A stretch of 49,596 bases of DNA from Opitutales bacterium (GCA_021772565.1 JAJFLR010000066.1:1-49596), one strand, 5' to 3'; numbered from the stretch's first letter, positions 8,989-34,013 are shown. Translations and numbers: made by a program. Notes: generated from the letters alone by a model not told the origin.

Positions 8989-8997
8989 ATTAAAAAA

Positions 8998-15012: not shown

Positions 15013-17034
15013 TTAAGAACTTGGCGGAGGAGTATTATAATCACCCATTGAAATATCACCTTGTGGGTTTGTAATGACAATCTGACCGTTTACAGTTAGA
15101 TCGTTATGAATGAGAGTATTGCCGTTGACTTCGAGTTTGTTACTACCAGGTGTATTTGTACCGAGTCCCATATTGCCATTTTTAAGAATTGTCAGTGCGT
15201 TACTTGGAACTATCGTTCCTGCTGTAGGATCACCATTTCCAACAATCAAGAGAGGGTCAGTTGGTACCCACGATCCGCTTCCTGTAATAATTTCATTACG
15301 AGTCCCTAAAACAGTGACGTAGTCAGCATCTGCTGTTAAATTGGTACCGATTGCTGTGCTGCCCTTTCCTTTGGCTTCTGTATAAGCGCCGAAAGCCTGA
15401 GCATTATCTTCGGTAGCATTTGCATTAGCACCGAAAGCCTGACTATAAATTCCTTCAGCTTTTGCTTGATAACCAAATGCTTGCGAGTATTGACCAGAAG
15501 CAAGAGTTTGAAATCCAAAGGCTTGACTGCTATCTTTTGTAGATTTAGCCTTATATCCTATTGCTTGACCATGCGGATGTGAAGCTAAAGATTCATATCC
15601 GATTGCTATAGTATACTGCGCATTTTCGGTTTTAGCTTTTGTGCCAATTGCAATACTAGCTGTTCCTAATGTTTCAGCTTCGTTTCCTATAGCAATAGAA
15701 TAGCTTTTATTAGCTTTTGCTTGATAACCAAATGCTTGACTAAAATCATACATTGCAGCAGCGTCAAGACCAACTGCCAAAGCATGATCTTTAGCTTGAG
15801 CATATGCTCCAATTGCAATGGATGTATCGTTATATGCACGACCAAGATAGCCTATGCCGATACTATTATTTCCTTGCCCCAAAGATTGTCTTCCAAATGA
15901 AATACTATCATCTCCGACAGCATGCGACCAACTGCCTATTGCAGTAGATCTTACCCCATCCGATTTTGATTGATAGCCAATGGCAATTCCTTCCGAATTG
16001 TTAGTAGTTGAGTTTACACCCATTGCAATTGAATAACTATCATTTGCTGTAGCCTGGTTGCCAAAGACCATGCTTTGATGACCTTTAGATTCAGCTAAGA
16101 CACCAATCGCTATACCATAATTATTATCAGTTTGTGAATCAAAACCAATAGCAATGCCATTTGGGTCTAATGTTGTCGCACTTTTACCAATTGCTACACT
16201 ATAGTTTCCATTAGAGTTGGCACTTCTGCCAACTGCTATACTTTCAACTCCATTGGCATTTGTATTATTTCCTAAAGCAATTTGATTGGAAGTATTAATT
16301 TTACCAGTTACTTCGAGATCACCATCAATTATTGTGTCGCTTAGTTTTGGTTCTAATAGATGTTTGTCGCCCCAGCCAAAATCAGGATTCGATCCACTAT
16401 ATAGACTGATACTCCATCCACTTGAATGATCATTGCTTTGAGTGCTAAATATTGTAGTTATCCATGCATCAACAGTTATTCTGTAACCATTTGTTATTAT
16501 GTCAGGATCTCCAAATGCAATAACCACATTGCCGTTAGCGCCCCATTGTGCACCGACATATTTATTGAAATTATCTGTGCCATGATCTATAATATTTTGT
16601 CGTAATATTTTTCCTTGTAATCCATCTTCACTGCCATTTTGACTATTATTAGCATTACCAACCACAGTAAAATCTATGATATCACTATCATCCCAGCCAT
16701 ACCCATGAACTCTGATTTTAAATTTAATGTTTTCATCTCTTAAAATTGGTGTAGTTATTACCCAGGCACCTGATGCATTACTGTATTGCTTCTTTGATAT
16801 AATATTTGGATAGAAACGAATGTCGTTTCTGTCTCCTTGGCTTAGGGTTCCTAAATTAGAGTGCCCTTCAACAAATAAATCACCGTTTTGACTATTACCC
16901 GCTTTTACCTCTAGATCACCGTTAACAGTGAAATCTCCTTCAATTGGATTGGCTAGTAACGCAGTATTTAGTAGCCCAAAGAGACAGAATGCCAATACAC
17001 TAATATTTGTCCATTTTAGTAATTTATAATTCAT
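15013..17034 (-). CDS. Secreted protein with YadA-head-type AIAIG repeats
   Basis: A 673-aa product with a signal peptide (core ISVLAFCLFGLLNTALLA). Residues about 30-235 resemble a fibre/knob module. From about 245 to 560 there are more than twenty head repeats of the trimeric-adhesin type, period 14-16: ESIAVGRSANSNGNYSVAIG, NGIAIGFDSQ, GIAIGYQSKSDGVRSTAIG, SQAFGYQAKA. These form left-handed beta-rolls in YadA-like trimers. The end (NGNMGLGTNTPGSNKLEVNG, then TPPPSS) resembles tail-fibre ends, but there is no YadA membrane anchor and no visible S74 self-cleaving domain. An AGGAG ribosome site lies about nine bases before the start (plus strand 17044-17048). A separate anchor or polymeric secretion is possible. 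It is the first gene of the surface island. Confidence 0.8.
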   Translation of the reverse strand: MNYKLLKWTNISVLAFCLFGLLNTALLANPIEGDFTVNGDLEVKAGNSQNGDLFVEGHSNLGTLSQGDRNDIRFYPNIISKKQYSNASGAWVITTPILRDENIKFKIRVHGYGWDDSDIIDFTVVGNANNSQNGSEDGLQGKILRQNIIDHGTDNFNKYVGAQWGANGNVVIAFGDPDIITNGYRITVDAWITTIFSTQSNDHSSGWSISLYSGSNPDFGWGDKHLLEPKLSDTIIDGDLEVTGKINTSNQIALGNNTNANGVESIAVGRSANSNGNYSVAIGKSATTLDPNGIAIGFDSQTDNNYGIAIGVLAESKGHQSMVFGNQATANDSYSIAMGVNSTTNNSEGIAIGYQSKSDGVRSTAIGSWSHAVGDDSISFGRQSLGQGNNSIGIGYLGRAYNDTSIAIGAYAQAKDHALAVGLDAAAMYDFSQAFGYQAKANKSYSIAIGNEAETLGTASIAIGTKAKTENAQYTIAIGYESLASHPHGQAIGYKAKSTKDSSQAFGFQTLASGQYSQAFGYQAKAEGIYSQAFGANANATEDNAQAFGAYTEAKGKGSTAIGTNLTADADYVTVLGTRNEIITGSGSWVPTDPLLIVGNGDPTAGTIVPSNALTILKNGNMGLGTNTPGSNKLEVNGNTLIHNDLTVNGQIVITNPQGDISMGDYNTPPPSS

Positions 17035-17082
17035 AGTTATTTTCTCCTTATTTTAATTGGTTAAAGTTTAGTTGAAATTTGA

Positions 17083-17560
17083 AAAGTGATGGATTGCCAC
17101 GTCATCTATTGATGACTCGCAATGACAAAGGGGTTTAATTTTTTGCCACAGATATACGCGGATTGAACACAGATTTTTTATTGTTTGTTTTAAATGTGCT
17201 AGAGCTGAAGTGGATAATAACTGGAATTGTGGGATTTTGAAAAAGTGATGGATTGCCACGTCATCTATTGATGACTCGCAATGACAAAGGGAATTAATTT
17301 TTTGCCACGGATGTAGGCGGAGTGAACACGGATTTTTTATTGTTAGTTTTAAAAGTGTTAGAGCTGATGTGGATAATAATTGGAATTGTGGATTTTTGAA
17401 AAAGTGATGGATTGCTGCGTCATCTATTGATGACTCGCATTGACAATTGGGAATTGATAATTCTAACCGCCAAGCACTTAATGAGCGTAAGGTTTTATTG
17501 ATTTGAAATATAGGTGCTAGATTACTGCGCCATCTACTGATGGCTCGCAATGACAAAGTT
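17083..17560. repeat. 159-bp tandem repeat built from a dispersed hairpin repeat
   Basis: GTGATGGATTGCC starts at 17086, 17245 and 17404, a constant period of 159 bases. Each unit carries GTCATCTATTGATGAC (a perfect hairpin) then TCGCAATGACAAAG, and a second segment of the type TTGCCACAGATATACGCGG...GAACACAGATTTTTT. A degenerate fourth copy is at about 17515-17557. An open frame on the minus strand (17068-17763) merely translates these repeats, so I do not call it a gene. The rest of the gene-free stretch to 18185 is AT-rich and shows nothing I can name. Confidence 0.85.
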
Positions 17561-18185
17561 GAAGCACTATTTATCCCTAGATATACACAGATCAGCCGTC
17601 GACTTTGGCTATGGCAAGACAAGTTAAGCGCAGATTTATTTAATTGATAGCCTTTGATTTTTGCGTCACAATGGTGCTTGCAACTACATGAGCTGGTTAA
17701 CCTGAGCCGTATTATTGCTAAGTTTAATAAGAATGCAATTGGGGTGAAATTAATTAATGACAATATGAGAGTATTTCATTGTTATCTATTACTGTTTGGT
17801 TTCGTCATATTGCATATTATTTAAAGGTTATTATTTTTTAGTAACTTCCTCTTTATTTTGTCAAACGATTTTTTGAAGTTTTTTTTACAACTATTAAATT
17901 ATCTAATGACAGATGGTAGTTCGGATTAGAAAGATTAATGCTAAATTTAATTCAACAGTTAAACTAAGATACAGATTTAAAAGAGTTTATAGTTTTTGGA
18001 CGCTGATATAGTTGTTTCAGTGCTTACCTTCAGTGATGTAAAAAAAATTTGGTATAAATTTTTTTGCGCTGTATTACTTCCGCAACAGTCATATAGTAGG
18101 GGACATTCCAGTGCACTCTACTTTGAAGAAATTGGCTGAATTGTTATTTCGAGACAACTCGATAGCTTGTACTGAACCAAAGATT

Positions 18186-19214: not shown

Positions 19215-22200
19215 ATGGCAGATGATCTTTTGAATGATTTAGTCCAAAAGGTGGGGGATAATTATCCTTATACCACTGAAAGACTTAACCAAATTATTAA
19301 CGAAGCCGAAGAAAATGATTTCGAGTCATTGCTGACAAGTAATGATATTGAGGGCCCGACAGATGAGTTTATAACGTTTGCCAGAAACTGGATCGAGAAT
19401 CTGGCTGTTACATCACAAGCCGATGAGTTAGGTGAAGATTGGCGAAATTATTTGGTCAAATTTTCTAACAAACATGCAGACTGTGCTGAATATTTACCCG
19501 GATGGTGTTCGGCTATCATCTCTGCTTTAGAAGCAGTTTTGAAAACCAACAATCATGTGACTATATGGGTATCTCTCGATGCTAGTTTGGATTATGTTGA
19601 TCGCTGTCTGCAAATTGAAATTTTAAAATCAGCGGCTGACGATATTGCCCAGACCGTTTCGTCTGAATTTCAGGAATCTTATCCCTCACTACAGATTGAC
19701 GATGATTTTGCCGATTTTGAATATTTGGAGGAATCGTTAGCAAGTTTGTTTAAGTTATGGGCAAAAAAAGTTTCGGGTAAACCTGCTATTTATCAGGAGC
19801 TTATTTTTATAGATTTGTTTATTCAAAATATTTTACCGGTTAATACCGGAAATGAAACTTTTTGGCAGAGTCTGATTGAACTCAAATTATTAAATGCAGT
19901 TGATGAAAAATTAGGGGTCTACACGCACCATATTTTATCTGATGTGCTTAATGTACTCAATGAATCATGTGCTCGATTTGATTGTATTTTTAGTTTGCGA
20001 GAAGAGATACCGCGTTTGCTGGAAGACTGCTCAAAAAGCCATCTACAATTTATAGATATTCTTATTGCTGTGATGATTTTGCACACATCAAAAGATTCAA
20101 ATTTAACAGAACGATTTGTGGCAAACTTATCGCGCGATTTTTTTGGCAGTGAAAACACCAATAGAGAAATCATTGTCTACTTTATAAAAAACAAACGTAC
20201 TGTTCTTGATTGGCTAAGAGAAAATCATGAACGGTTATACATTGACTGGTTTGAAGATACTCTTGGTTATTTTAAAAACTTATTGCAATACACCGATTCA
20301 ATTGAAAATAATTTAAAGCTTTTGAAGCCAAAATTTTCAAAGCTGGGGGAAGATTTGGCTGTCGGGTTGAAGGGTGCAAATATGGGCAGCCGATTGCTCA
20401 ATTTTATCAGTGAAATTTTCAGCCGTGCCTGTTGGGCCGGATCTGTGACAAAGAACCCTAAATTAGCCAGCCACATTTTTCGTCAAGGGATCGTTGCCAG
20501 CATGGGACTCGACGCACGCGATGAGATTTGGCGAAAACACGCTCGCATACAGGCTGCATTGTTAAATGATTTAACTGAGCAAAAAATTAACTCAGTAGAA
20601 GTTGTCATTGCCAAGACGCTTATCCAAACAATTGAATCGATCACACTAAGCACAAAGTTAGCACCGGGTGATCTCTATTTGGATAATACCACATTAAGCA
20701 GGGTTGATTTAGATAGTTTAAATTTAAAGTCTATAGATGTATCGCTGGCCATTAAGAGAATAACTGTCGATCAAAGATTGTTTTCTGAAAGAACATTTTT
20801 ACAGTCGACTGAGGAATGGTTTTTTAATCATATTTTATCACGGTTAGGACCAGTTTCAGGATTAGCCTTAAAGGAAGTATTTTCAACGCTGGGAGGCGGA
20901 ATTAAAATTGCTGATAAAGATGATGAAGTTCCGGCAAATTTTTCTAAAGCTTACGAGCAATTTACAAACAGGCTTCCAAGACTGACAGCCAGCATTAATT
21001 TATATGTCAATGCAGAAAAGGTGGCAAAAGACTCTACCAAATATTTATTCGATAAAATAACAAACTTGAAATCTGAAGTTGGCGATGATGGTTACAATAC
21101 AACAATAAAAGAAAACCGACTTACGTGTATTAAGATTGGCCGTACTTTGAGCCCGGCATCAAAAATATCAAACGACCAATTTGCCGGATGGTGGAATCGA
21201 ACAATTGAAAGGTTTATAATCAACCGTCCCAGCGGAATGTTTGAGGAGATGCTGAATGGGTATTATCGAGGTATGAATAACGTTTTATCGGGTGAAGAAA
21301 CAGAACAGGCATTTGATGTCATTCACAATACCTTCAAGGAAATTCTTGGTGTAAGCTGCACATTGGCAGCAGTTGGGTCAAAAAGCTGTCCGATAGCAGG
21401 ACCCGGATGGCGCAGTTTATTTGGTAGTAGTAAAGCAAAACCGATGCCAAAGTCATTTGAGTTGAATGCTGAAGATATTGAAATTGCTGCAGGAAATTTA
21501 GCTGACTATAAAGACACAGTAATAAAGCAATTTAATTTGCTGGTCAAAAATTTTATTGCATCGGGTGATGTGGAATACTCATGGCAAAAGGTCATGCCGA
21601 TGATTGATCAAACTTTAAAGACTGAGACTACTTCAGGATTAGCTAAAGCTTATATAAATTTCGCTTTTGAATTAGCTGATGCAGTTGGCGGGGCAAAGGG
21701 AGTATTTTGGTTTGAAACAATTCATCGCGGATCATTTATTGTCGCTCAAATTGGATTGGCACAAAAATTAGCCGATGCTATTGATGAAATAGCTAACGAA
21801 TATGCCAGGCATGCTTACAATATTTTTCCGGATGAATATAATGATGTTGGCGAAGCAGAAGCTGTCAGTAAAATTATGGCAGATCAAACAGCTTTATTAA
21901 ATAATTTTTCTAATATTCTTCGTCAGGAATCACCGACATTGGCTTATTTAAATATCGTACGTTACATGATAGAACTGGTTGCACCTTACAAACATTTTAG
22001 TGGTTCTGTATGGAAGTCAGGCTATCGTTATATCGAAAAATTTCTTTCAGACAAAATTGATAACTTTGAACATTACGCGCTCTCATTTTGGGTCAGTCAA
22101 CTTGAATCAATGTGTGACAATATCAATGAAACACATGGTTTAGCCAAGGAAATTTATACATCGGGTGAATATACTTTTTCAGCTAGAGTTGAAGAAGAAG

Positions 22201-25200
22201 ACGCAATTCGTATGTGTGTCTCTTCTGTGACAGCTGCATCGATTGCACCTGACTCAGCATCGATTACTCCGGATGCCGTACTGAGTCGATTTGCATTAAG
22301 TTCAGCCTTACCTAATTTCAAAAGTCCAAAACAACTAGAGCAATTAAATAAATTAATACTCAATACGCTGGAAGGACTTTTACCCGAAAATTTTGAATAC
22401 AATTTAAAACAATTAGGTAAGAAATTTTCTCGAATTAATTCTCTGAGCAAAAAATCCGGTGATTTGTCAGTGGCCGCTGCATTTATCGGTGTTTCTGATG
22501 AGACAATGATTTCATCATTTTGGAAAACTGTCAGTATTGGTATGACAGTAAATGAGGATAGCAAAAGTCAGCTGGCAAAAGATAACGCTATACTAAAAGA
22601 GCATCATATAAATACTCACTCTGTTGGAGAAATCGCTGCTAGTGTTGCAGCATTGGATAGTCAGTGGTTTATGTCAGCAATAGCGGATACGGCTCAAAAA
22701 CGTTTGTTGCAAACGTCATTGCATGCAGTGGTGACAAATTCAACATCAGGAGAGAAGAATATTAGTTATGATTTAATTTCAAAAACAGCTGCTCGAAATA
22801 TTGGGTTTATGCTCGGTTTTTCTGACGATTTAAATAAGGTAGATGATTATGGATTTATAGATGTTGCGGGATTAGATATTGCTGATAAAACTCCATTGAA
22901 TGAAAAAATTACTCAGAGTTTTCGTTTAATTAAATCTAAACTTGGAAAAGTTAATTTTGGCATTAAACTGGCAAAGAAAGTTAAGGAAATCTCCAAGCAA
23001 TTAAGTGCTGATTGTCAAAAGATTGAGAGTTTAACTGAATCTTTTGGTGATACTAAAACATACGCTGCATTCATAAAAAGAGTGGCTTATAGGTTAATCG
23101 ATTCCAATATTGAACCTGCAAGGTTGATGGCAGGTAAAGTGGTTGAGAATTACCGACTTTTTAATTTAGATGACGTCAATCTTCTTTATGCAAAGAGTTT
23201 GGAAGCAATGCTGACAGTGGCATCAGAAACAGAAAGAGTCTATGTGCACCAGGCAATTTTTGAAACTCAGTTAAATTCAACGATCATTGAAACTAAAAAC
23301 TGGAAATCAATCTTCGCTTCTTCAGAAGAAGAGGCAGCTGAATTTATTGATAAAGCCATCGCTTCAATTTCTCAACTGGCAGAAAAATCAGCAGAGGACA
23401 CTATCACGTATTTTGGCAAAGGTGACAAGACGGTGATTCAAACAATTCTCGTTAGAGAGTTAGAAGTATTTATCACTGCAATAAAGAATTTTGGTGATAT
23501 AGAATATGCCTGGAAATTATTAACACCTCTTGTCGATGAAGATATTGATGTTGTGGGGACTGCAGTATTAGCCAGAGCCTATTATTGTTTAAATAATAAT
23601 CTCGATGAAATTTTGGAAAATAGTTCGGTAGCATTTTGGCATCAAATTTGGATTGAGAGTGCAGAATTAGTTGGGCAGGTTGGGGCCGGAAAAATTATTC
23701 ACAACAATCTTGTAGAAACTGCCAAACTCGTCAGCGATCAAATTTTAAAAAATTTCCCGACAATTATCGGCGAGAAGGAAAAAGAGATTGTCGAAGTCAG
23801 TTTAAACAATCGTCAACTGCTTAATTTAAGTAACTTGGGATTACAGTTAAGAACGGAGCCATCAACAGTTGCAGCATTGAATTTGGCTCGTTTGTATTTG
23901 GAAAGCTCAATAAATTTAATTGATTTACCTAGATTGGCATTACTCTGTAGCACACGTTATATTGAAGATTCATTGATAGAGAAATGTGATGCAGTTGAAC
24001 GAGCAGCGTTGGTAAAATGGCTCTCGCAATTACGATTATTTAAATCAAATATACCTACAGCTAAAATTTTGTCTGAGAAAATATTTTTAACTAATGAACA
24101 AATATTTAGTGAGAGTAAAGCAATTGATGCAAAATGGAGAGAATCAGCATCTTACTTGATTGCGTCGGCTTTAACACCTGATTCGGCACCGGTTCCCGGA
24201 AAAGCATTACTACAAAGAGCAATAATTTCTAATGAAACATTATTTGCCTTAGATGCCGCACAGTGGAATGATAAGTCTAACGAATTACTTGAATTATTTA
24301 AGCAATGGAGCACAAAAAAATTACCATCGGGATTAGCAAAAAGATTAGCAGAAATTTCTCGACTGAAAGAAGCTGTTACAAAGATTAAGGAATCAAAAGG
24401 GCATGGGCTCGGTGCCGCATTGGGGATATTTTCAAAATTAAGAATTTCCAAATCTTTGTGGATTGGCACATTTCTCGCGCGAGCTGATGTTAAAAGTGGT
24501 TTAGGCATGCAGAATGCAACTGACATGATAATTAGCCAACAACACGGATGGGATATTCCTGAAGACAGTAACTTAATTAGTGGTTTAAAATTAATTGGAT
24601 CTGTCTGGTCTCTCAAAGAGAATATAGAATCTATCGATGTAAAAAAAGATGAGGAGGAAAAATCAGGTGGAATTATGGGATTTTTTAAAGGAAAGAAAAA
24701 ATCAGAATCGAGTAAAATTGATACACCTGAGATCAGGAAAGAAGCCAGCTACATTTTGCGAAATCTTAGTGTTGTCATAGCTACAAATACATCAGTTGAA
24801 TACACAGCATGGCTATTTGGGTTTTTGGGTACAGCAGATAATTTTTCTAATAAAAATAGTGATGGTGCCCTAAAATTTTATAGAGGCTTATCAATTTTTA
24901 TAAATCAGAGGTTTGGAGATCAGACACCGATTGGAAAATCTGTTTCAACCTATATATTAAAACTGGAAACTGTCGCTTTGGGCTATAATTTAATAAATAG
25001 CGGCAGTGAATTTTCAGGAAAATGTTCAACATCAGTTGGTACCAGTGAACAAGCTGTCAAATCTATGCTCAGATTAATGGCATTGTATGCTATTGGTGTT
25101 GTTGATTATGAAACTGCTGATGCTTACACTGGAGTAGAAACCTCTGGAGACAAATCGACACTCGACCTTATAAGAGATAACTCAGAAAGCTTTAATTCGG

Positions 25201-25271
25201 TTATAAAAGAAAGTATTGCAAAATCAACAGCAACAAAAATAGATAGCTGCTTGCAACCCCTATATTTTTAA
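19215..25271 (+). CDS. Giant alpha-helical triple-repeat protein, first gene of the V4R/globin operon
   Basis: A 2018-aa product counted from the ATG at 19215; an in-frame TTG four codons upstream is less likely. No signal peptide or membrane segment is visible, so it is probably cytoplasmic. I recognise no family. Three diverged copies of a helical unit of about 350 residues can be aligned by eye, at about 95-440, 768-1113 and 1410-1762. Copies 2 and 3 share GDVEYSW/GDIEYAW, IAPDSASITPDAVL/LTPDSAPVPGKALL, and a FSRINSLSKKSGDLSVAAAF / EISRLKEA..GLGAALGIF stretch. Copy 1 shares the LGEDLAVGL segment and the FWQSLIELKLL / VWKSGYRYIEKF region. A basic GFFKGKKKSES stretch lies near residue 1820. 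The role is probably a scaffold for the proteins encoded downstream, by inference. Confidence 0.85.
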   Translation: MADDLLNDLVQKVGDNYPYTTERLNQIINEAEENDFESLLTSNDIEGPTDEFITFARNWIENLAVTSQADELGEDWRNYLVKFSNKHADCAEYLPGWCSAIISALEAVLKTNNHVTIWVSLDASLDYVDRCLQIEILKSAADDIAQTVSSEFQESYPSLQIDDDFADFEYLEESLASLFKLWAKKVSGKPAIYQELIFIDLFIQNILPVNTGNETFWQSLIELKLLNAVDEKLGVYTHHILSDVLNVLNESCARFDCIFSLREEIPRLLEDCSKSHLQFIDILIAVMILHTSKDSNLTERFVANLSRDFFGSENTNREIIVYFIKNKRTVLDWLRENHERLYIDWFEDTLGYFKNLLQYTDSIENNLKLLKPKFSKLGEDLAVGLKGANMGSRLLNFISEIFSRACWAGSVTKNPKLASHIFRQGIVASMGLDARDEIWRKHARIQAALLNDLTEQKINSVEVVIAKTLIQTIESITLSTKLAPGDLYLDNTTLSRVDLDSLNLKSIDVSLAIKRITVDQRLFSERTFLQSTEEWFFNHILSRLGPVSGLALKEVFSTLGGGIKIADKDDEVPANFSKAYEQFTNRLPRLTASINLYVNAEKVAKDSTKYLFDKITNLKSEVGDDGYNTTIKENRLTCIKIGRTLSPASKISNDQFAGWWNRTIERFIINRPSGMFEEMLNGYYRGMNNVLSGEETEQAFDVIHNTFKEILGVSCTLAAVGSKSCPIAGPGWRSLFGSSKAKPMPKSFELNAEDIEIAAGNLADYKDTVIKQFNLLVKNFIASGDVEYSWQKVMPMIDQTLKTETTSGLAKAYINFAFELADAVGGAKGVFWFETIHRGSFIVAQIGLAQKLADAIDEIANEYARHAYNIFPDEYNDVGEAEAVSKIMADQTALLNNFSNILRQESPTLAYLNIVRYMIELVAPYKHFSGSVWKSGYRYIEKFLSDKIDNFEHYALSFWVSQLESMCDNINETHGLAKEIYTSGEYTFSARVEEEDAIRMCVSSVTAASIAPDSASITPDAVLSRFALSSALPNFKSPKQLEQLNKLILNTLEGLLPENFEYNLKQLGKKFSRINSLSKKSGDLSVAAAFIGVSDETMISSFWKTVSIGMTVNEDSKSQLAKDNAILKEHHINTHSVGEIAASVAALDSQWFMSAIADTAQKRLLQTSLHAVVTNSTSGEKNISYDLISKTAARNIGFMLGFSDDLNKVDDYGFIDVAGLDIADKTPLNEKITQSFRLIKSKLGKVNFGIKLAKKVKEISKQLSADCQKIESLTESFGDTKTYAAFIKRVAYRLIDSNIEPARLMAGKVVENYRLFNLDDVNLLYAKSLEAMLTVASETERVYVHQAIFETQLNSTIIETKNWKSIFASSEEEAAEFIDKAIASISQLAEKSAEDTITYFGKGDKTVIQTILVRELEVFITAIKNFGDIEYAWKLLTPLVDEDIDVVGTAVLARAYYCLNNNLDEILENSSVAFWHQIWIESAELVGQVGAGKIIHNNLVETAKLVSDQILKNFPTIIGEKEKEIVEVSLNNRQLLNLSNLGLQLRTEPSTVAALNLARLYLESSINLIDLPRLALLCSTRYIEDSLIEKCDAVERAALVKWLSQLRLFKSNIPTAKILSEKIFLTNEQIFSESKAIDAKWRESASYLIASALTPDSAPVPGKALLQRAIISNETLFALDAAQWNDKSNELLELFKQWSTKKLPSGLAKRLAEISRLKEAVTKIKESKGHGLGAALGIFSKLRISKSLWIGTFLARADVKSGLGMQNATDMIISQQHGWDIPEDSNLISGLKLIGSVWSLKENIESIDVKKDEEEKSGGIMGFFKGKKKSESSKIDTPEIRKEASYILRNLSVVIATNTSVEYTAWLFGFLGTADNFSNKNSDGALKFYRGLSIFINQRFGDQTPIGKSVSTYILKLETVALGYNLINSGSEFSGKCSTSVGTSEQAVKSMLRLMALYAIGVVDYETADAYTGVETSGDKSTLDLIRDNSESFNSVIKESIAKSTATKIDSCLQPLYF

Positions 25272-25297: not shown

Positions 25298-25987
25298 ATG
25301 ACAGTTGAGAATTATCAAGCACAAAAAGTAGACAGTATTGAATTCAGTTCAGAATTCTCTGCTCTAAATACAGAAGGAAGAGAAGTAGACAACGCTGCAG
25401 ATATTGGGTCTGTTATGGCAACAGTGAATAGATTAGCTGTTAATGTAGGTGGACAATTAAAACTTGGTTCGATCAATAAGTTTCACAGTTGGGGTGACGG
25501 CAAAGGTTTTAATTACAGTCACGAAAAAGAGAGTGTAAATTATGAAGCTTATGAAGATATCACGGAGTGGGTTGAGCTGGATAGCAGTTTGGCAGGCAGG
25601 TCAGATGATAAGAAAAATTTTGACTCCCAAATTCCATTATTTCCGAGCAGGCTGGATATACAGCGTTACTTAAACGATTTAAAGATTGTTTCGTGGTTTG
25701 GAATAATGAACGGATCAAATAAAACCTGGCAGCATAATTTTAAAAATTTTATTACGGAACGAAATCTTATTACACAAGTGTGTAAGAGTATTTTTCAGAT
25801 GGATATAATTCTTAAAACACAAGTATATCCGAGGTCCAGATTGAGTGCAAGTTACGACAATGGCAGAATATGGGTTTGGGTGAATAATAAAAATGATTAT
25901 CTAGTGGTGTGTACCGCAAAATCGAGACAAAGTATTTCCTACCTGCCAGTAATAGAATTAGGAGAAGCTTTTTATATCAGCAATTAA
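25298..25987 (+). CDS. Conserved-looking protein of unknown family
   Basis: A 229-aa soluble protein without a recognised family, 26 bases after the giant helical gene and four bases before the helix-hairpin-helix gene. The N-terminal 60 residues include a segment with ADIGSVMATVNRLAVNVGGQ. The C-terminal part is richer in aromatic residues (KIVSWFGIMNGSNKTWQHNF, GRIWVWVNNKNDYLVVCTAK) and probably forms a beta-rich domain. Only two Cys are present and no metal-binding motif is seen. It does not look like heme oxygenase or a PcyA-type bilin reductase, although its size is close to that of PcyA. The operon position suggests a partner in the same complex. Confidence 0.7.
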   Translation: MTVENYQAQKVDSIEFSSEFSALNTEGREVDNAADIGSVMATVNRLAVNVGGQLKLGSINKFHSWGDGKGFNYSHEKESVNYEAYEDITEWVELDSSLAGRSDDKKNFDSQIPLFPSRLDIQRYLNDLKIVSWFGIMNGSNKTWQHNFKNFITERNLITQVCKSIFQMDIILKTQVYPRSRLSASYDNGRIWVWVNNKNDYLVVCTAKSRQSISYLPVIELGEAFYISN

Positions 25988-25991
25988 AGAG

Positions 25992-26699
25992 ATGAGTAAT
26001 TTGATGACAATAGAAGAAGAGATAAGTCTCAAAGTACCAGCGCCGAGTAAAATCAAGAAACCGCGTAGACAGGTTATAAGATTACCCTACAAATCAATTG
26101 AGTTAACTTCAGAGTGTATTCTAGAAGATCCTGAGCATTCTGGCGAAATTGTTAGAGATGACAATAGCCTAACCAGTTTTGGTATTTCTGAGAAAGATTT
26201 TCTGGAGGCTCTCAATATATTCGATTGGGAGGATTTAACATCTCTTGATGGTATAACAGGAATGATGGCGCACAATATAATTAAGAGTCGAAAAAAGTTT
26301 GGAGAATTTACTGATTTGGATGAAATACTGCGAATTCAATCATTAACTCCTATTAAATTTAAAAAATTCATTGGTCGACCATGTTGCTACAAAAAGAATT
26401 CTATGAAATTTTTATTTATCTGGCCAGTTGAGCGGCCAATTTTTGTCAGTGACTTGCAGCCGTATCAGGGGAAAATTTCTGGACTCAATCGAATAACTTT
26501 TGATCGCAACAGTAGTTTAGAAAATGAAAAAAGAATTGCCTCAGAGAATGGAAATAAATTGGTCATTCGTAAAATTGGCTCATGGAATATTTATATTCAC
26601 AAAGGAGTTGAAAAAATGAATGATGTAGCTAAAAGGTTTATTTTACAGTTACCAAAATTTATTAAAGCTTCAATTAAACAAAAGGGGTATACAGTTTGA
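25992..26699 (+). CDS. Helix-hairpin-helix protein of the signalling operon
   Basis: A 235-aa product. Residues about 80-127 (LTSLDGITGMMAHNIIKSR, KFGEFTDLDEILRI, LTPIKFKKFIGRP) form a ComEA-like helix-hairpin-helix pair (GITGMMA is the hairpin). Such modules usually bind DNA but are also used for protein contacts. The N-terminus is basic and Pro-rich (KVPAPSKIKKPRRQ). The C-terminal 100 residues are unassigned; they contain LFIWPVERPIFVSDLQPYQG. There is no signal peptide, unlike true ComEA. Two nearby starts (MSNLM) are possible. It is co-oriented with the genes on both sides. Confidence 0.75.
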   Translation: MSNLMTIEEEISLKVPAPSKIKKPRRQVIRLPYKSIELTSECILEDPEHSGEIVRDDNSLTSFGISEKDFLEALNIFDWEDLTSLDGITGMMAHNIIKSRKKFGEFTDLDEILRIQSLTPIKFKKFIGRPCCYKKNSMKFLFIWPVERPIFVSDLQPYQGKISGLNRITFDRNSSLENEKRIASENGNKLVIRKIGSWNIYIHKGVEKMNDVAKRFILQLPKFIKASIKQKGYTV

Positions 26700-26866: not shown

Positions 26867-27526
26867 ATGGCATCAATAAATCCTGTAGATGGTGGAATTA
26901 AAGGAAATCACAATTATTATGTACCTGAAGAATTTTTCAGGCGTGATGCAGAAAAAGGGTCAATCTACTTAAGAGATGGACAGCGCGCAGCCAAAGTTTC
27001 TGAAGATTTTATTACGGGATTGCATGCTGGATTGGATGATGAAGTAGGTGATGCAGCCAACCTTATTATGTATAAGTGTGGATATGAATGGGCGTTACAG
27101 GACATGAAACGTTTCAACGAGCGTATACGTAAAGAGTATGGGGGCGGGAAAATTGATATTTGGCAGATGAACACTCGTTTTGTTTTTGAAACTTGGTGGT
27201 GGCCTTTAAATGTTGAAGGGTTTGGCCATTGGAGTCTTGATTTATCATTTAAGAAAAAGAATTTAACTTTTGTTGAAATTCGTAATTCAGCAGTTGCATT
27301 TTCAATGAAAAGAGTGGGTAAACCGGTTTGTCATTTATATGCCGGGCTGTTTGCCGGGACATTTACTTTTTTTGAAAGAGAAGAAAGGCAATGTATTGAA
27401 GTGCAATGTTACTCGATGGGTAATGATTGCTGCAAATTTATGGTAGGGCCGGAAAAGCAGGTTAACGCTGCTGAATTCTGGAGACAAGAGGGGGCGTCTG
27501 CGGAAGAGATCAAAGTAAATTTTTAG
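26867..27526 (+). CDS. V4R-domain protein 1 (Slr0144-like)
   Basis: A 219-aa cytoplasmic protein. The V4R (4-vinyl reductase) fold is a small-molecule-binding domain first noted next to BchJ-like tetrapyrrole proteins. The signature covers roughly residues 55-195: DEVGDAANLIMYKCGYEWAL with C71, PVCHLYAGLFAGTF with C155, then a Cys-rich end CIEVQCYSMGNDCCKFMVG (C176, C181, C188, C189), the usual V4R ending. A WWWP cluster sits at 110-113. Cyanobacterial operons of the slr0144-slr0152 type encode two V4R proteins, and this operon has a second one at 29658-30308. I infer binding of a tetrapyrrole-like ligand or metal. V4R membership is well supported; the ligand is not known. Confidence 0.85.
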   Translation: MASINPVDGGIKGNHNYYVPEEFFRRDAEKGSIYLRDGQRAAKVSEDFITGLHAGLDDEVGDAANLIMYKCGYEWALQDMKRFNERIRKEYGGGKIDIWQMNTRFVFETWWWPLNVEGFGHWSLDLSFKKKNLTFVEIRNSAVAFSMKRVGKPVCHLYAGLFAGTFTFFEREERQCIEVQCYSMGNDCCKFMVGPEKQVNAAEFWRQEGASAEEIKVNF

Positions 27527-27537
27527 TATTCTAAGAA

Positions 27538-29055
27538 ATGGTCGAATTCAAAAGCATCCATGCTGACCGATTTAAGCGGTTTTTGGAAGTTGTTTCATCT
27601 GAGCTTTCAGATCAGGAAAATTTATTTATAACACCGTTGACTGATGTTTTTCCGATTGCTGATGAAAGTGATATTGAGATTACAAATTTGGTTGCTGAAG
27701 ATTCCACTATTGAAGAAATTACTACTGAAAAATTTGGAGTAGATCATAAAACTGGTCCTGAAAATTTTGATCAAAAGACTGAAGAAATATCTGATGATAC
27801 CTCCATTGCAGAAATAGCACATGAAGATGAAATTTTTGAAAGTTCAACGTTTGAAACTATCCAACAAGATGATGATTCTGTTTCTGAAGTAGAGAAGGAA
27901 ACAGAGCAAATACTTGAAGAATTTACTACTGAATTTACAGGTGAAGAGATCGAGGAAAATGTCACAGAAGTAGAAAGTATTAGCACTACAGAAATTGGCG
28001 AAACTGTTCAAGCTGATGAGCTAGTCGAAAGTGAAGAAGAGCTGACGGAGGTTAGAGAAATTGAAGATACTGAAACTGTTGAAGAAATTGTCACAGCAGA
28101 ATCTACTACAGATGAAACGTTAGTCAAAGAGCCACAAGCTGAAGAAGTTATTGATGAATTTAGTGAAGAAGCTGAAATTTCATTTGAAGATATCAGTGAA
28201 CAAGAGATCAAAATTGATGTTGGAGAAGTAGAAACTAGTGAAGAATCAGTCTATAAAACTATCGAAGATACTTCTGAAATAACGGAGACAGATAGTGATA
28301 TAATTCGTAAAGAATCCACAGTAGAAGAATTTGTAAAGGAAGAGACGACTGAAGATGAGGGTTCAGAAGAAGTAACTGATGATGAAGACTTAGATGATTC
28401 AGATGAAGAGCCTGAAATAGAAATTTTTGATGCTGAGTTTGAACAAGAAGTTTCATTTGATGTAGATGAAAAAGAAGAACCTTCGATTGAAGAAGAAAAA
28501 ATAGAGAATGAAGAAATAATAGAAGAAACAGCTACGGTTTCAATGGTAGTTGAAGAAGCAATCGATGAAGTTGTTGAAACTGAGGTACAAGCACCAATTA
28601 CGGAAGGAAATTTTTATCTCAATATACAAACTGGAAACTTTTTTGCTGCACTTGATTGGAGTGGTAAATCCACTGCTAACCTGAATGAATATATACCGAA
28701 AGGAGGGTTTTCATCTGAACAGGATGATTCAGCAATTGCAGTTGGTCGTCCGACTGGTGCAATTTCGACAGATCCTCTACAAGTTTTTAAATCTGGTGAA
28801 TTTTTCTCAAAAATACCATGGGATGGGAAATCAGAATTTGAAGGTCTTGAAGATATTGCAGCATCAATTCATATTGACCCATCACAATTTACTGGAGTGG
28901 GAGGTGATTCTGATCGTGGTAACATTCTTAATGTAGGACTTGAAACTGCTGTTAGAACTAGTGAACTAATTGCTGCTGGTGGAGAAAATGGAAATCAAGC
29001 AGCACTTCAGCAAGCCAGTGATTATTTTAAAAATCTTCCGTGGAATAAATCTTGA
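27538..29055 (+). CDS. Acidic linker protein with three FFxxLPW-GKS motifs
   Basis: A 505-aa product, 11 bases after V4R protein 1. Residues about 45-350 are a Glu/Thr/Ile/Val-rich, probably disordered acidic linker. The C-terminal 140 residues hold three copies of a short aromatic motif: FFAALDWSGKS at 368, FFSKIPWDGKS at 422 and YFKNLPWNKS at 496-505, the last at the very C-terminus. Between them are Gly-rich stretches (GVGGDSDRG). The repeated motif looks like a docking peptide on a flexible tether. The N-terminal 40 residues (KSIHADRFKRFLEVVSSEL) could be a helical anchor. Partners are probably the V4R or globin proteins (inference). No family is recognised. Confidence 0.8.
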   Translation: MVEFKSIHADRFKRFLEVVSSELSDQENLFITPLTDVFPIADESDIEITNLVAEDSTIEEITTEKFGVDHKTGPENFDQKTEEISDDTSIAEIAHEDEIFESSTFETIQQDDDSVSEVEKETEQILEEFTTEFTGEEIEENVTEVESISTTEIGETVQADELVESEEELTEVREIEDTETVEEIVTAESTTDETLVKEPQAEEVIDEFSEEAEISFEDISEQEIKIDVGEVETSEESVYKTIEDTSEITETDSDIIRKESTVEEFVKEETTEDEGSEEVTDDEDLDDSDEEPEIEIFDAEFEQEVSFDVDEKEEPSIEEEKIENEEIIEETATVSMVVEEAIDEVVETEVQAPITEGNFYLNIQTGNFFAALDWSGKSTANLNEYIPKGGFSSEQDDSAIAVGRPTGAISTDPLQVFKSGEFFSKIPWDGKSEFEGLEDIAASIHIDPSQFTGVGGDSDRGNILNVGLETAVRTSELIAAGGENGNQAALQQASDYFKNLPWNKS

Positions 29056-29086: not shown

Positions 29087-29653
29087 ATGTCTACAGAATC
29101 ATTAAGGCATCATCCAAATCTACAAGAATTCATTCAGAATTGTCAGGGACGTCATCCTGATGATGAAGAATTTGATATTTATAATTCTGTTGCACCCGGT
29201 AATGCAGCCCGTGCATCAGCCGCAGCTGAAATAAGAGATGTTGAGGGACCTATTGTTCGGAAAATTGTCAGACAGATATTTGATGCTTATCCATTTGACG
29301 CACATCATGATTTAGCAGTCATGAAAGCTACGCGTGACATCCGAATGGTTGTAATATATGCATCACTTTCAATGTTATTAGGTGATCCGGACTGGTTTAA
29401 AAATAAACTTTTATTCTGGATGAAGAAAATAATCCAGGCATTTGAATTTCCTGATAAACTACCTAACAAACAATATATTTTCAAAGATTCAGAAAATCAA
29501 GCGGCCATTCAAAAATTAAAACCGTTTCAACGATCAATCTATGAAACATTTTTATTATTACGTGAAGAAATGAGGAAAGCTTTATCGGAAGAATCATATC
29601 AGGAAATTGAACCATTTTTACAACTAGGAGTAGAAATCCTTTCTAACGATTAA
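29087..29653 (+). CDS. Phycobiliprotein-like globin (BBAG-type)
   Basis: A 188-aa protein with the pattern of the phycobilisome/allophycocyanin superfamily. Residues about 30-70 are like the A/B helices (IYNSVAPGNAARASAAAEIR, DVEGPIVRKIVRQIF). Then MKATRDIRMVVIYASLSMLL, GDPDWFKNKLLFWMKK and IIQAFEF match the CxRD..LRYVTYALLAGD..L..GL.E.Y.ALG block of phycobiliproteins. R83 and D84 align with the Arg and Asp that contact the bilin, but the chromophore Cys position is Ala (A81). Such proteins in non-photosynthetic bacteria were described as bilin biosynthesis-associated globins; that knowledge is from memory. Binding may be noncovalent or lost. The gene sits between the acidic motif protein and V4R protein 2, as expected for this cluster type. 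Assignment is by motif, not by search. Confidence 0.8.
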   Translation: MSTESLRHHPNLQEFIQNCQGRHPDDEEFDIYNSVAPGNAARASAAAEIRDVEGPIVRKIVRQIFDAYPFDAHHDLAVMKATRDIRMVVIYASLSMLLGDPDWFKNKLLFWMKKIIQAFEFPDKLPNKQYIFKDSENQAAIQKLKPFQRSIYETFLLLREEMRKALSEESYQEIEPFLQLGVEILSND

Positions 29654-29657
29654 AATT

Positions 29658-30308
29658 ATGAATACTGAATCAGTCAATGAAGCATTAAATTTGGAACGAT
29701 TCTTTAGTGAAAACGATCATAAGTGGGATCTGGTAACCGGGACAATTTTCAATCAAGGTGGAACACGTGTTGTTTACTTGTCGAGTGATGTTATTAAAGG
29801 AGTTTATACAGCTCTCGAATATGAAGCTGGAGAAGCATGGAAAATAATATTGCAAAATTGTGGTTACAAATGGGGAAAGCGAGTAGCTGAACATTTGGAT
29901 CGTGAATTAAGTGAGCTGTTTAAAAAATCTACAACAAATGTAACGGTTAATGATTATGTAAGACTTTTAGAAGCGTATTTTGTTTATCATGGTTGGGGTA
30001 ATATTAAAGTAAATTTGGAAAATGCTATTAAGCATGGTGTCATTTCTATTAATCTAACAAATAGTATTTTTGAACAAGTCCTTAATGATGTTGACGGACA
30101 TGTCGATCAAATGATTGAAGGGATGTTACGATCACAGTTTGAACACATTAGTGGTTGTGAATTGGATTGTGTTCAAATTTCGTCTGTCCGGGATGGAGCT
30201 GATAGTTGTGAGTTTATTATATCCGCACCGGATAGAATTGAAAAAACTCGAGCTAAAGTTGAAGAAAAAGCATCAAGAGAATCCATTTATGAACTGATAC
30301 TTGGATGA
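29658..30308 (+). CDS. V4R-domain protein 2 (Slr0147-like)
   Basis: A 216-aa protein, four bases after the globin gene and overlapping the kinase start by four bases (ATGA). It shares the V4R pattern with protein 1: EAGEAWKIILQNCGYKWGKR (C68) and the end GCELDCVQISSVRDGADSCEFIISAP (C167, C171, C184). N- and C-terminal helices flank it. The two proteins may form a heteromer, and the translational coupling to the kinase suggests that ligand binding here feeds the kinase. It is less Cys-rich than protein 1, so they may bind different ligands. Confidence 0.85.
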   Translation: MNTESVNEALNLERFFSENDHKWDLVTGTIFNQGGTRVVYLSSDVIKGVYTALEYEAGEAWKIILQNCGYKWGKRVAEHLDRELSELFKKSTTNVTVNDYVRLLEAYFVYHGWGNIKVNLENAIKHGVISINLTNSIFEQVLNDVDGHVDQMIEGMLRSQFEHISGCELDCVQISSVRDGADSCEFIISAPDRIEKTRAKVEEKASRESIYELILG

Positions 30309-32047
30309 CCGAACTGCAAATCAGCGAACGTTATGTTATAGAAGGAAATCTTGGCTCTGGTACAGGTGGAGTTGTTTATTTGGGAAAAGATTCGATTACT
30401 GGTGAAAAAGTTGCTATCAAACATTTCAGGAAAACAGCCGGTAGTAAACCTGCACTGCATGAAGCATCTGCAATTCTAGGTATTAATCATCCGAATATTG
30501 TTCGTTGTCTGGATTTTTGTTATCTTGGAGCAGGGGACTTATATCTAATTTATGAATATATAAGTGGTGGAACATTACGAGATTTATTGGAAAAGTCTAA
30601 AGCGTTAGATATTGAGACTGCATTATGCTGCGCACGACAAATTTTTTTAGCATTGGCACATATTCATAAAATCGGATTGATTCATTGTGATTTAAAACCT
30701 GATAACATATTTGTTCAGGAACAGGATGGTGAGATAATTTATAAATTAGGTGATTTAGGTGTGGCTCATTTTTTGAAGCAAATCACAAAAGAACAAACCG
30801 TTGCTGGAAGTCCCGCTTATACTGCCCCAGAAAGGAATTATCATACGTTTGAATTCAACAGTGATTTGTACAGTATGGGCGTAATTATATATGAAGTAAT
30901 ATTAGGCAAACGGCCATTTTTAGGCAATCCATCTGAAGTAATGAGAGCTCATTTGCGGCAGACTCCAGATTTATCTGAAATAAATGAACTGCGATTGAAA
31001 GATTTTCTTGGAAGTTTATTGGATAAAGACCCAAAATACAGATTAAGGCGTTCAGAGCAGGCAATTGCCATAATTGATTCAATAACTCGAAAGAATGATA
31101 ACGTTTTTTTTAGGGCTCGAGAAAATCAACTTACAGCTAAACCATTTAATTTATCGAGCGCAAGTGGAGACGGGGCAGAACAAGTAAGTGAATTTTTACT
31201 CGATTTTCCATATGAACGACTTTTCCCATTAACTTTGTCGGGCCAACCAATATTGGCTTTAGATTATGGTACCCAATTGGAATTTATTGATGGTGTAGAA
31301 GGGCTTTCGTTGAAAATTATTATTCCTAACATTGGTATGGGAATACAGGTATTCGATATATCAAAAATAGTCTATAGTACAAAATCCCGTATTTGCTTAA
31401 TGGACATACAAAATCCTGTTGAAAAAACATTGATTGATAATTGCAGTAGAGTCTATGGAATATTTTATTCGTTTGATGAAGGCAATGTAATCTGGTCTGA
31501 TGCAAAAGATGCTCATTCGACGGATCTATACAAAAATAAAACAATTCATTTTCCGTGTTCAAATTGGGGGTTGGGGGCACATTTGAGATTTAATAAAGAG
31601 GGTCAAATATTGTATTCGTCCGGGCCAATTAATCCATCATTAAACTTGGCTGATGCTGATGGAAAATTGATCAAACAGTATGAGCTTGAAGGGCCTATCA
31701 TGGAAATGACCTCAGGTCCTGAAGAATTCATGTTTATTACCTTAAGCCATGAAAATTACGAAAGATTGGTTATCTATAACTTAAAACAAAATGGAGAAAT
31801 TATTAAAGAGCTGTTACCTAAAGGAGTTGAGCACTATACTGCTTCTGGTAGCGATATTATTATATTATTTCAGGGGGGGGCGGTATTAGCCTATAAAAAT
31901 GGTTTAAAAAAAGTAAAAATTCCTATTAATAATAATTTTGCCAAAGCAATACATACAACTTTTGATTGCTCTTATTTTTTTACTGTTTCTAATATTAATT
32001 CAAAGACAAAAATATCAACATATAAAAACTTGAATACCACAGACTAA
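30305..32047 (+). CDS. Ser/Thr protein kinase with C-terminal sensor-like region (SpkG-like position)
   Basis: A 580-aa product. The Hanks-type kinase domain covers residues about 10-265: Gly loop GSGTGG at 17-22, VAIKHF with K39, E53, catalytic loop HCDLKPDN (D129, N134; Cys replaces the usual Arg of HRD), DLG (150-152) instead of DFG, and APE at 174-176. HCD kinases often do not need activation-loop phosphorylation. Residues about 290-580 contain repeated beta-rich segments (GIQVFDISKIVYSTKSRICL, NVIWSDAK, GLGAHLRFNKEG) and look like a small propeller-type domain. There is no membrane segment. The cyanobacterial slr0144-slr0152 operon also ends in a kinase gene (spkG). Kinase assignment is firm; the propeller is a guess. 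Confidence 0.9.
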   Translation: MTELQISERYVIEGNLGSGTGGVVYLGKDSITGEKVAIKHFRKTAGSKPALHEASAILGINHPNIVRCLDFCYLGAGDLYLIYEYISGGTLRDLLEKSKALDIETALCCARQIFLALAHIHKIGLIHCDLKPDNIFVQEQDGEIIYKLGDLGVAHFLKQITKEQTVAGSPAYTAPERNYHTFEFNSDLYSMGVIIYEVILGKRPFLGNPSEVMRAHLRQTPDLSEINELRLKDFLGSLLDKDPKYRLRRSEQAIAIIDSITRKNDNVFFRARENQLTAKPFNLSSASGDGAEQVSEFLLDFPYERLFPLTLSGQPILALDYGTQLEFIDGVEGLSLKIIIPNIGMGIQVFDISKIVYSTKSRICLMDIQNPVEKTLIDNCSRVYGIFYSFDEGNVIWSDAKDAHSTDLYKNKTIHFPCSNWGLGAHLRFNKEGQILYSSGPINPSLNLADADGKLIKQYELEGPIMEMTSGPEEFMFITLSHENYERLVIYNLKQNGEIIKELLPKGVEHYTASGSDIIILFQGGAVLAYKNGLKKVKIPINNNFAKAIHTTFDCSYFFTVSNINSKTKISTYKNLNTTD

Positions 32048-32049: not shown

Positions 32050-32601
32050 ATGAAATTAATAGTACATTCACATTCATCAGTTGTAAGTCAGTTTTTAAAA
32101 GATGAGCTGGAAGAAACCGTTATAATTGAATTATCACAACATCCACAAATCGGTTTGTATTTAGGATTAGAAACACCAATGAGTTTTCCGGGAATTGCAG
32201 GAATATTAAATAAAAAAGTTTCAGTGAAAAAACTGCAGATAAAAAATGATAAAGTTGCTGCACCTATTGTCCTTGCATCAGGTAATTCAATTTCGTGGAA
32301 TAGTATCAATGAGGCTGTAGGTGAATTAACTGAAAATGGAAATAAATATCTGTTATTGGTAAACATCTTTGATTTAGATAATATTAAACCAATTTTACCC
32401 CGAATTAGTAATATTAAATTTTATTGGGATATAGCAGACTTACCACCTGAAAATTTACCGGAATTTGCAAATTATCTTAAACAGGAACAATTAATTAATG
32501 ATCAAATTTGGGGAGGGCTGAATCTCTATCAAACTGATGGAAGAGCTTATTCTGATGAAAATAAAAATTTATTGCAGACAACGTTTTCTCAATATTCTTA
32601 G
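32050..32601 (+). CDS. Small protein of unknown family, kinase-linked
   Basis: A 183-aa cytoplasmic protein, two bases after the kinase stop. The N-terminal strand-helix pattern (MKLIVHSHSSVVSQFLKDEL) and mixed alpha/beta composition (KYLLLVNIFDLDNI, IKFYWDIADLPPENL) suggest a compact domain. I recognise no motif. PGIAGILNKK could be a loop. It may be a kinase substrate, an adaptor or a receiver-like pseudo-domain; nothing decides this. Confidence 0.7.
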   Translation: MKLIVHSHSSVVSQFLKDELEETVIIELSQHPQIGLYLGLETPMSFPGIAGILNKKVSVKKLQIKNDKVAAPIVLASGNSISWNSINEAVGELTENGNKYLLLVNIFDLDNIKPILPRISNIKFYWDIADLPPENLPEFANYLKQEQLINDQIWGGLNLYQTDGRAYSDENKNLLQTTFSQYS

Positions 32602-32654: not shown

Positions 32655-34013
32655 ATGGCAGGTAGAATATTACTAATAGATGACGAACTCAAGTTTGCGA
32701 AAATGGTTACTGAAATTTTGCGCAAATCACGTTATCAGGTTGATATGCAAACTAGCCCGGAGGATGGGTTGCTGTGCCTGAAAGAACGTCATTACAATTT
32801 AATAATAACTGATTTTAAAATGCCTGAAATGGATGGTGATGTTTTTATGAAAGCATTACGTGAAATTATTCCTGATATACCTGTAATAATGATCTCAGGT
32901 CTAATGAATAAAGCAGATTTGGTTAACGTAGCAAATTTGGGCATTAATTTGATTTTAGAAAAACCATTTAAAACAGAGACTTTGCTGGAAAACGTTAGTC
33001 GGTATGTAGAGCCATTGTCGGAAGATGCTGAAATTGAGGGTACTGATAAAATTAAAGTTGAAGTACCAAATAAGAAAAAAGCCAAAACCAGAGTTAAAAA
33101 CTATCCAAAGGATTTATGCTACCTGGTGGATTCCAGTTTATACATGCAGGATTTTATACAGGATTTATGGGAGACAGTAAATCAAAGTAATCATATCTTT
33201 ATTACTGCATCCAAGGGTGCGGAATTTGAATTAATATTGCGAGAAATTTCACAATGGAAAGGGTACAATAATCAACGTTCGCATATTATATCAGCAGTAC
33301 AACTAAAGTCACCTCAAGTTATTGAACTATTGGACCAAACTGCAACTGACCCGGAAATAAGTAATATAATCGGCGTCATTGATGTGGAGAAAACAAAAGT
33401 TGAACAACAGCTTTACCTTTTAAACTTTATTTTAAATACTTCTGAAAAAATTTCACGTGCCAAAAACCTGGTATTTGTTTACAGAAATCTAAACCCGGAT
33501 TTTATTGATTTAAATAAAGTTGTATCTCCAACACCGCTTCAACTCCATTTATCTGATAATTCAATAAAATTACCTGAGCTGTCAGAACGTCACTGTGATA
33601 TAGCAACCTATGTTAAAAGGTACATTGACTTAGTTTCAAATAGTGAAAACAGATCAGGAAAAAAAGTGCTAACTGAAGATGCGATTAAAATTCTTTTATC
33701 ATATGAATGGCCGGGAAATTTTAACGAGTTAATCAATACATTGAGACGGTGTGTTTTGCTTGGTTCAAAAGAAAATACTACATCAAAAGATATCGAAAAG
33801 GTTATACTTAGAAACAATGGTACTCCACCTGATATTTCAAATTTTGAATTAAATAATTTTCTAAAAGAAAGTCAGAAGAAATATTTAACGACCATACAGG
33901 AGTCTATGGATGATGATTTATCAGCCGCTTTAAGTGCTGTAGGTGTAGAAGATGTTACTGCAGGTAATCAGGGATTGGATGCATTAGCACTCATTTATCC
34001 AACACTTGACTAA
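32655..34013 (+). CDS. Response regulator fused to a degenerate NtrC-type AAA+ domain
   Basis: A 452-aa product. The receiver domain (1-120) is intact: D9, D10, phospho-acceptor D53, S81, K103. Residues about 145-390 follow the order of a sigma-54 AAA+ domain and keep the YEWPGNFNELINTLRRCVLL segment of NtrC proteins. The Walker A, GAFTGA and Walker B motifs are absent (ITASKGAEFE stands where GESGTGKE would be), so it should neither hydrolyse ATP nor open sigma-54 promoters. The C-terminus lacks a Fis-type DNA-binding helix-turn-helix. I infer that it is a phosphorylation-driven protein partner. It is the last gene of the operon, 53 bases after the small unknown gene. Confidence 0.85.
   Translation: MAGRILLIDDELKFAKMVTEILRKSRYQVDMQTSPEDGLLCLKERHYNLIITDFKMPEMDGDVFMKALREIIPDIPVIMISGLMNKADLVNVANLGINLILEKPFKTETLLENVSRYVEPLSEDAEIEGTDKIKVEVPNKKKAKTRVKNYPKDLCYLVDSSLYMQDFIQDLWETVNQSNHIFITASKGAEFELILREISQWKGYNNQRSHIISAVQLKSPQVIELLDQTATDPEISNIIGVIDVEKTKVEQQLYLLNFILNTSEKISRAKNLVFVYRNLNPDFIDLNKVVSPTPLQLHLSDNSIKLPELSERHCDIATYVKRYIDLVSNSENRSGKKVLTEDAIKILLSYEWPGNFNELINTLRRCVLLGSKENTTSKDIEKVILRNNGTPPDISNFELNNFLKESQKKYLTTIQESMDDDLSAALSAVGVEDVTAGNQGLDALALIYPTLD

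Follow-up and report, generated by a model that had tools for sequence, protein, structure and literature searches.

The P0001 gene and its repeats

The subject of this analysis is a giant gene in a 49,596-nucleotide stretch of DNA from an Opitutales bacterium (GCA_021772565.1, JAJFLR010000066.1:1-49596; hereafter the window), whose product we call P0001. Its open reading frame (ORF) runs on the plus strand from an ATG at 19215 to a stop at 25271 and encodes 2018 residues without an internal stop, as had been stated in an original prediction made from the sequence alone; a TTG at 19203, upstream of the ATG, is a possible alternative start. The gene leads a run of plus-strand genes with a gap of 26 bp to the next ORF, in keeping with its earlier placing at the head of an operon. 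Using profile comparisons and structure predictions, we found that P0001 appears to carry at least four globin-like domains of the phycobiliprotein type, and it probably belongs to a family, not described before, of giant all-helical proteins composed of tandem globins of the phycobiliprotein or bilin biosynthesis-associated globin (BBAG) type, which come in two types (I and II). Homologues were found at G197, L008, L011, L042, L043, L044, L045/L046 and L057-L060.

Upon scanning P0001 with extended hidden Markov models (HMMs) of the two module types (Z=1000), we obtained four domains, all on the plus strand: domain 1 (type II, residues 100-249, positions 19512-19961), domain 2 (type I, residues 551-709, 20865-21341), domain 3 (type II, residues 808-967, 21636-22115) and domain 4 (type II, residues 1451-1608, 23565-24038). 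Reversed sequences, which served as control, gave zero type I or type II matches at E up to 0.5. Domain 1 scored E 0.003 with the type II HMM, in whose building this stretch had not been used, and the profile of the N-terminal region aligned to the type II module profile with prob 92 and E 6e-7 (hhalign).

A whole-protein self-BLAST of P0001 gave the identity match alone, and segment-wise local alignment was used instead. Among the three diverged repeats originally described, copies 2 (residues 770-1131; 21522-22607, plus strand) and 3 (residues 1416-1777; 23460-24545, plus strand) proved to be real, with a local alignment score of 273 compared to 38 +/- 5 for shuffles (z ~43) and with both of the motif pairs named for them, GDVEYSW/GDIEYAW and IAPDSASITPDAVL/LTPDSAPVPGKALL. 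The existence of copy 1, of which domain 1 forms the core, was borne out by the profile matches, but its pairwise local alignments were not significant (z 1.1 with copy 2 and -0.1 with copy 3), and its register to copy 2 is ~712 residues, not the 673 implied before. The spacers between the copies, which had been thought related, are so only weakly (prob 53, E 1e-4); spacer 1 additionally contains one full extra globin-like domain (domain 2), and spacer 2 shows faint similarity to type I modules (prob 21, E 1e-3).

Relation to phycobiliproteins

The sequence evidence for phycobiliprotein-like globins is firm. Compared to the whole PDB, the type I module profile (10 sequences), which represents domain 2, gave phycocyanin alpha as its best match (6.2e-5), and nearly all listed matches were phycobiliproteins; the type II profile (14 sequences), which represents domains 3 and 4, gave phycocyanin as its best match (1.1e-4), and most listed matches were phycobiliproteins, including allophycocyanins. 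These profile comparisons show both module types to be homologues of phycobiliproteins, and homology also links type I with type II (prob 96, E 7e-9). A control segment taken directly after module II found no phycobiliprotein in the PDB. The only match of a four-row giant profile in the PDB at E up to 10 was allophycocyanin alpha (0.31), and PF00502 was the top Pfam family in five giants, with sub-threshold matches (E 0.0012-0.016, 15.6-19.2 bits against a cut-off of 22.2) covering a segment that runs into or across the CxRD motif or its equivalent. The earlier statement that no family is recognised thus stands for P0001, whose sequence alone had no match in the genome contigs searched or in family libraries, but not for its relatives, given their matches to PF00502 below the cut-off. 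An AAA_3 match of P0001 (E 0.056) was set aside as chance, as were the PDB matches of the single relative P0008, and module III matched type I only through overlapping sequence, so that this match was not counted.

The chromophore cysteines set the window apart from most of its relatives. CxRD, which the PDB profile alignments place onto the phycobiliprotein chromophore-cysteine motif, occurs 27 times in 11 relatives, compared to 0.44 expected and a maximum of 4 in 1000 shuffles, and most full-length relatives carry 2-4 copies; the relatives that keep the motif include some from three other groups of bacteria. P0001 has 0: its sites read KSID505, TIKE630 (domain 2), IMAD887 (domain 3) and LNNR1530 (domain 4, with the lost site at SLNN/LNNR ~1529-1530). 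The BBAG encoded nearby reads ATRD where, in the alignment, its relatives have CxRD. As judged from these alignments, the putative attachment motif is kept in most relatives and all lost in P0001 and the neighbouring BBAG. A loss unique to the window is ruled out by a genome (G660) with two giants (L057 5378-9706 and L058 5542-9474), both without CxRD, and by the Methylomonas BBAG, which reads AHRD. A cysteine ~8 residues past the lost site of domain 2 (LTCIKIG; window ~21126, residue ~638) is a candidate substitute.

Predicted structure

AlphaFold models of residues 1-1140 (model 1, mean predicted local distance difference test score, pLDDT, 67) and 1090-2018 (model 2, mean pLDDT 61) are helical throughout, in agreement with the all-helical character first described, and are supportive of a globin fold. 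Strings of predicted helices in the order A-B-E-F-G-H lie at residues 115-250, 572-711, 826-981 and 1469-1610, with the assignment to phycobiliprotein helices made by us from helix lengths. The helices of domain 1 span 115-139, 141-155, 168-186, 191-205, 214-233 and 235-250, and domain 3 was modelled with pLDDT mostly 80-95. In a Foldseek search of model 1 against the PDB, a probability of 0.98-1.00 (E 0.3-1.2) was reached, among the 50 matches listed, only by phycobiliproteins and a bilin-type fluorescent protein, the latter listed as a 'bacterial fluorescent protein'. Whole-chain searches were swamped by long helical alignments, with unrelated helical proteins of low probability at the top ranks. 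Together with the module profiles, the phycobiliprotein matches support the original suggestion that the protein perhaps contains globin-like helices itself; the pointer to a phycobilisome-like fold was likewise a good one, as the gene at 29087 encodes a BBAG, a phycobiliprotein paralogue.

The gene cluster and its relatives

The genes that follow P0001 on the plus strand encode a 229-aa protein of no family that was not seen in related clusters (25298-25987); a helix-hairpin-helix (HHH) protein that is kept after the giant in Opitutales clusters (25992-26699; PF12836 8.6e-9); V4R protein 1 (26867-27526; PF02830 2.7e-15), which is 65-79% identical in 10 loci; an acidic low-complexity protein (27538-29055) whose position is shared by its counterparts in related clusters; the BBAG, a single phycobiliprotein-like globin (29087-29653; PF00502 3.1e-9); V4R protein 2 (29658-30308; weak PF02830, with homologues at the same place); a Ser/Thr protein kinase kept in the clusters (30305-32047; PF00069 4.1e-49); a 183-aa protein kept after the kinase (32050-32601); and a response regulator with an AAA-lid domain (32655-34013, by family scan).

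The window operon is a BBAG/pre-PcyA-type bilin gene cluster, as described by Rockwell, Martin & Lagarias in 2023 (PMC10151467), of whose traits the two V4R proteins (26867, 29658) and the BBAG (29087) are present. Heme oxygenase (C20), bilin reductase (C53) and a cluster-type ferredoxin (C21, 64% identical) are encoded in the same genome, all off the window contig, and are contiguous with the cluster in relatives; the same authors note pre-1 clusters with dispersed members (PMC10151467). The C53 reductase retains the invariant residues of its aligned family. A loss of bilin synthesis along with the cysteines is ruled out by these genes at other loci. The window genome contains no PHY domain and, at 95% completeness, no photosynthetic reaction centre (PF00124). 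Its heme oxygenase adjoins a paralogue of the window response regulator (L025 8558-10617), and a response regulator likewise lies beside heme oxygenase in G641 (L059 5145-6946). Two similar small proteins of the window genome (L024 9213-9722 and L025 8009-8497), which start with LLLKSNRTLGSQL and LLLRSNRALGSSL, adjoin the bilin reductase and the heme oxygenase, respectively.

By sequence comparison, the cluster and its synteny extend across phyla. A profile of V4R protein 1 found loci in Opitutales metagenome-assembled genomes (MAGs), a verrucomicrobial MAG, a Thiomargarita MAG, a Thiotrichales MAG, Methylomonas/Methylococcaceae, Blastocatellia and Eremiobacterota. The typical order in Opitutales is an unknown protein, heme oxygenase, giant, HHH protein, 2Fe-2S ferredoxin, V4R protein 1, acidic protein, BBAG, V4R protein 2, kinase, 183-aa protein, ferredoxin-dependent bilin reductase, second ferredoxin and PP2C. 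In G641, from the order of the Thiotrichales MAG, bilin reductase and response regulator come first, and then heme oxygenase, the giant (1791 aa), ferredoxin, V4R protein 1, acidic protein, BBAG, V4R protein 2 and kinase. PP2C and response-regulator genes are frequent in clusters of this kind. A conserved ~217-aa protein of no known family lies upstream of heme oxygenase in three Opitutales/verrucomicrobial clusters (L007 6608-7273, minus strand; L008 1437-2090; L011 1568-2221) and elsewhere in the L010 cluster (6489-7130).

Full-length homologues of 1936-1947 aa, ~20% identical to P0001, were found in three other Opitutales/verrucomicrobial genomes. A giant was matched in 4 of 373 genomes sampled from the window organism's order and in 5 of 43 of the Thiotrichales-type order, two MAGs of the latter type having giants of 1534 and 1496 aa. 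Giants of other phyla, those of the two Thiotrichales-type MAGs included, were found with a profile of four sequences in cluster-bearing genomes: in Blastocatellia two consecutive ORFs encode the giant, with an FNR-like gene and a bilin reductase next in line, Eremiobacterota have giant fragments, and one MAG encodes a homologue of the N-terminal part as a separate gene. Modules of the G641 giant are ordered II-I-II-I-II-I, where the first type II was assigned from an N-terminal match and type I matches 2 and 3 are independent of the profile. Neither plasmids (query P0008) nor phages (query P0003) yielded relatives. A DUF3386 protein (3.9e-23; L045 1401-2132) lies immediately 5' of the giant in an Eremiobacterota contig, and a similar one occurs in L047 (2039-2749).

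On the minus strand, the window further encodes a 2169-aa RHS-repeat protein (PF05593 1.7e-43) and, upstream of it, a 1445-aa protein of no family (both within 2479-13335); a 673-aa protein (15013-17034) whose repeated SxAIG-like motifs give the impression of trimeric autotransporter head repeats; and a repetitive ORF with CHCESSIDDVAIHHF repeats (17068-17763), possibly spurious over repeated DNA.

Proposed function

Taken as a whole, P0001 is probably the giant tandem bilin-type globin protein of a bilin cluster, and its function is most likely that of a single-chain scaffold of bilin-binding globins, with at most non-covalent binding in the window, that feeds a kinase/phosphatase output. In the relatives, the products of heme oxygenase and bilin reductase would supply a bilin for covalent attachment to each chain, at two sites or more, so that one polypeptide would keep several bilins in a fixed arrangement. 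As its partners, the giant would bring together the small BBAG and the V4R proteins; a scaffold that arranges globin or V4R subunits had been proposed originally, and we infer the same. The kinase, phosphatase and response-regulator genes would then read the giant's state as output, and the whole may form a complex that responds to light or redox state and serves in regulation or pigment handling rather than as an antenna for photosynthesis. The window organism would have kept the scaffold, with the bilin bound non-covalently or via other residues, or as a bilin-free scaffold.

Several results weigh against this reading. The PF00502 cut-off was passed by none of the giants, and P0001 had no match to the family at all; because both this cut-off and the cysteine motif were tested and found lacking, we do not class P0001 as a phycobiliprotein. 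Neither copy 1 nor module III was matched directly in the PDB, and the module profiles matched a BBAG profile with prob 23 and 42 only, hhalign windows of the four-row giant alignment being similarly weak against BBAG. The high-probability Foldseek matches, over ~160 columns at TMt 0.52-0.64, were not significant by their E values, and model 2 found no phycobiliprotein in the PDB. The alignments behind the models held 8-13 rows (predicted template modelling score 0.43-0.63), and residues ~475-583 and 1090-1356 were not confidently modelled. Finally, the CxRD-less giants outside the window indicate that the essential role of the family may lie elsewhere than in bilin attachment.

It is possible, though on balance we think it unlikely, that the giant is a purely structural scaffold whose globins have lost their pigment function and which only arranges BBAG, V4R and kinase subunits. 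The absence of CxRD from P0001 and both G660 giants, the cysteine-free neighbouring BBAG and the maintenance of P0001 intact at 2018 aa all fit such a role, whereas the 2-4 CxRD of most full-length relatives do not, nor does the retention of heme oxygenase, bilin reductase and ferredoxin in a genome without any PHY domain. More tentatively, the family may be a single-chain polybiliprotein, in which alternating type II and type I globins form three covalently linked pairs, equivalent within a single chain to the phycobiliprotein (alpha-beta)3 disc. In bacteria without photosynthesis it would work as a sensor with several bilins or as a pigment assembly, and some lineages, such as the window's, would since have dropped covalent attachment; the II-I alternation in G641 suggests such a disc equivalent without proving it.

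Less probable again is storage or chaperoning of bilins or other tetrapyrroles, with substrate passed among heme oxygenase, bilin reductase and the V4R and BBAG proteins. The placing of the giant among genes for heme oxygenase, reductase, FNR-like protein and ferredoxin accords with this, as does the binding of small hydrophobic molecules ascribed to V4R domains (PMC13326532), but the covalent-type cysteine sites of the relatives favour retained chromophores over hand-over. A single-chain antenna of the photosynthetic type, passing energy to an acceptor, would explain the phycobiliprotein homology and the several chromophore sites per chain in relatives, and yet is very improbable given that the genome lacks a reaction centre gene, that BBAGs tested by Rockwell et al. 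show low fluorescence (PMC10151467) and that the neighbours are signalling genes instead of linkers. We give equally little credence to an ordinary alpha-solenoid of the HEAT/TPR kind with a chance resemblance to phycobiliproteins: the chain is long and all-helical and whole-chain Foldseek was topped by unrelated helical proteins at low probability, but HEAT/TPR families, a match to which the original prediction had named as counting against it, were looked for in P0001 and its relatives and not matched at E up to 1, and the phycobiliprotein matches are specific, with a clean adjacent-segment control and conserved CxRD.

For the favoured bilin-type giant, the retention together with the BBAG cluster in several phyla points to it as the probable partner of the small BBAG and offers a way to approach the role of the cluster, and its several globins suggest a multi-bilin assembly outside photosynthesis. 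The family also raises the question of why some lineages drop all attachment cysteines from both the giant and the BBAG, yet keep bilin synthesis.

Comparison with known systems

Phycobiliproteins (PF00502; phycocyanin and allophycocyanin) are the closest matches to both module types in the PDB; they agree with P0001 in the helix order predicted for it and with its relatives in the chromophore motif. They are, however, separate subunits of ~160 aa that form alpha-beta trimers, whereas the giant has several globins per chain, stays below the family cut-off, lacks the cysteine in its window copy and occurs without photosynthesis. The phycobilisome core-membrane linker ApcE/LCM is a large chain with one phycobiliprotein domain and linker repeats that organises other phycobiliproteins; the giant resembles it as a large chain with phycobiliprotein-like domains, but the giant's repeats are themselves globin-like. 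In the Synechocystis slr0144-slr0152 operon, slr0152 encodes the kinase SpkG. This operon, as described in PMC10151467 and PMC13326532, likewise holds two V4R proteins, an Fe-S protein and the BBAG slr0149, and Rockwell et al. relate its slr0144-slr0149 part to the BBAG/pre-PcyA cluster (PMC10151467); unlike the clusters described here, slr0144-slr0149 lacks heme oxygenase, bilin reductase and giant alike and is tied to photosystem assembly.

Photoglobins and photocobilins are also bilin-binding globins of non-photosynthetic bacteria, but, according to PMC10151467 and PMC10979010, they are B12-associated, and the related BBAG-2 lacks CxRD. The closest likeness is to the published BBAG/pre-PcyA clusters, which share heme oxygenase, bilin reductase, an Fe-S protein, two V4R proteins and BBAG, and whose CxRD recurs in the modules of the giant's relatives. 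According to Rockwell et al., BBAGs bind bilins in E. coli, and phycobiliproteins are thought to have descended from globins of heterotrophic bacteria of unknown function (PMC10151467). We found no description of such a multi-globin giant in the open-access literature. The published BBAGs are of the single-domain type, and the main text of PMC10151467 contains no multi-domain member of 1300-2000 residues, the form that the giants of these clusters take.

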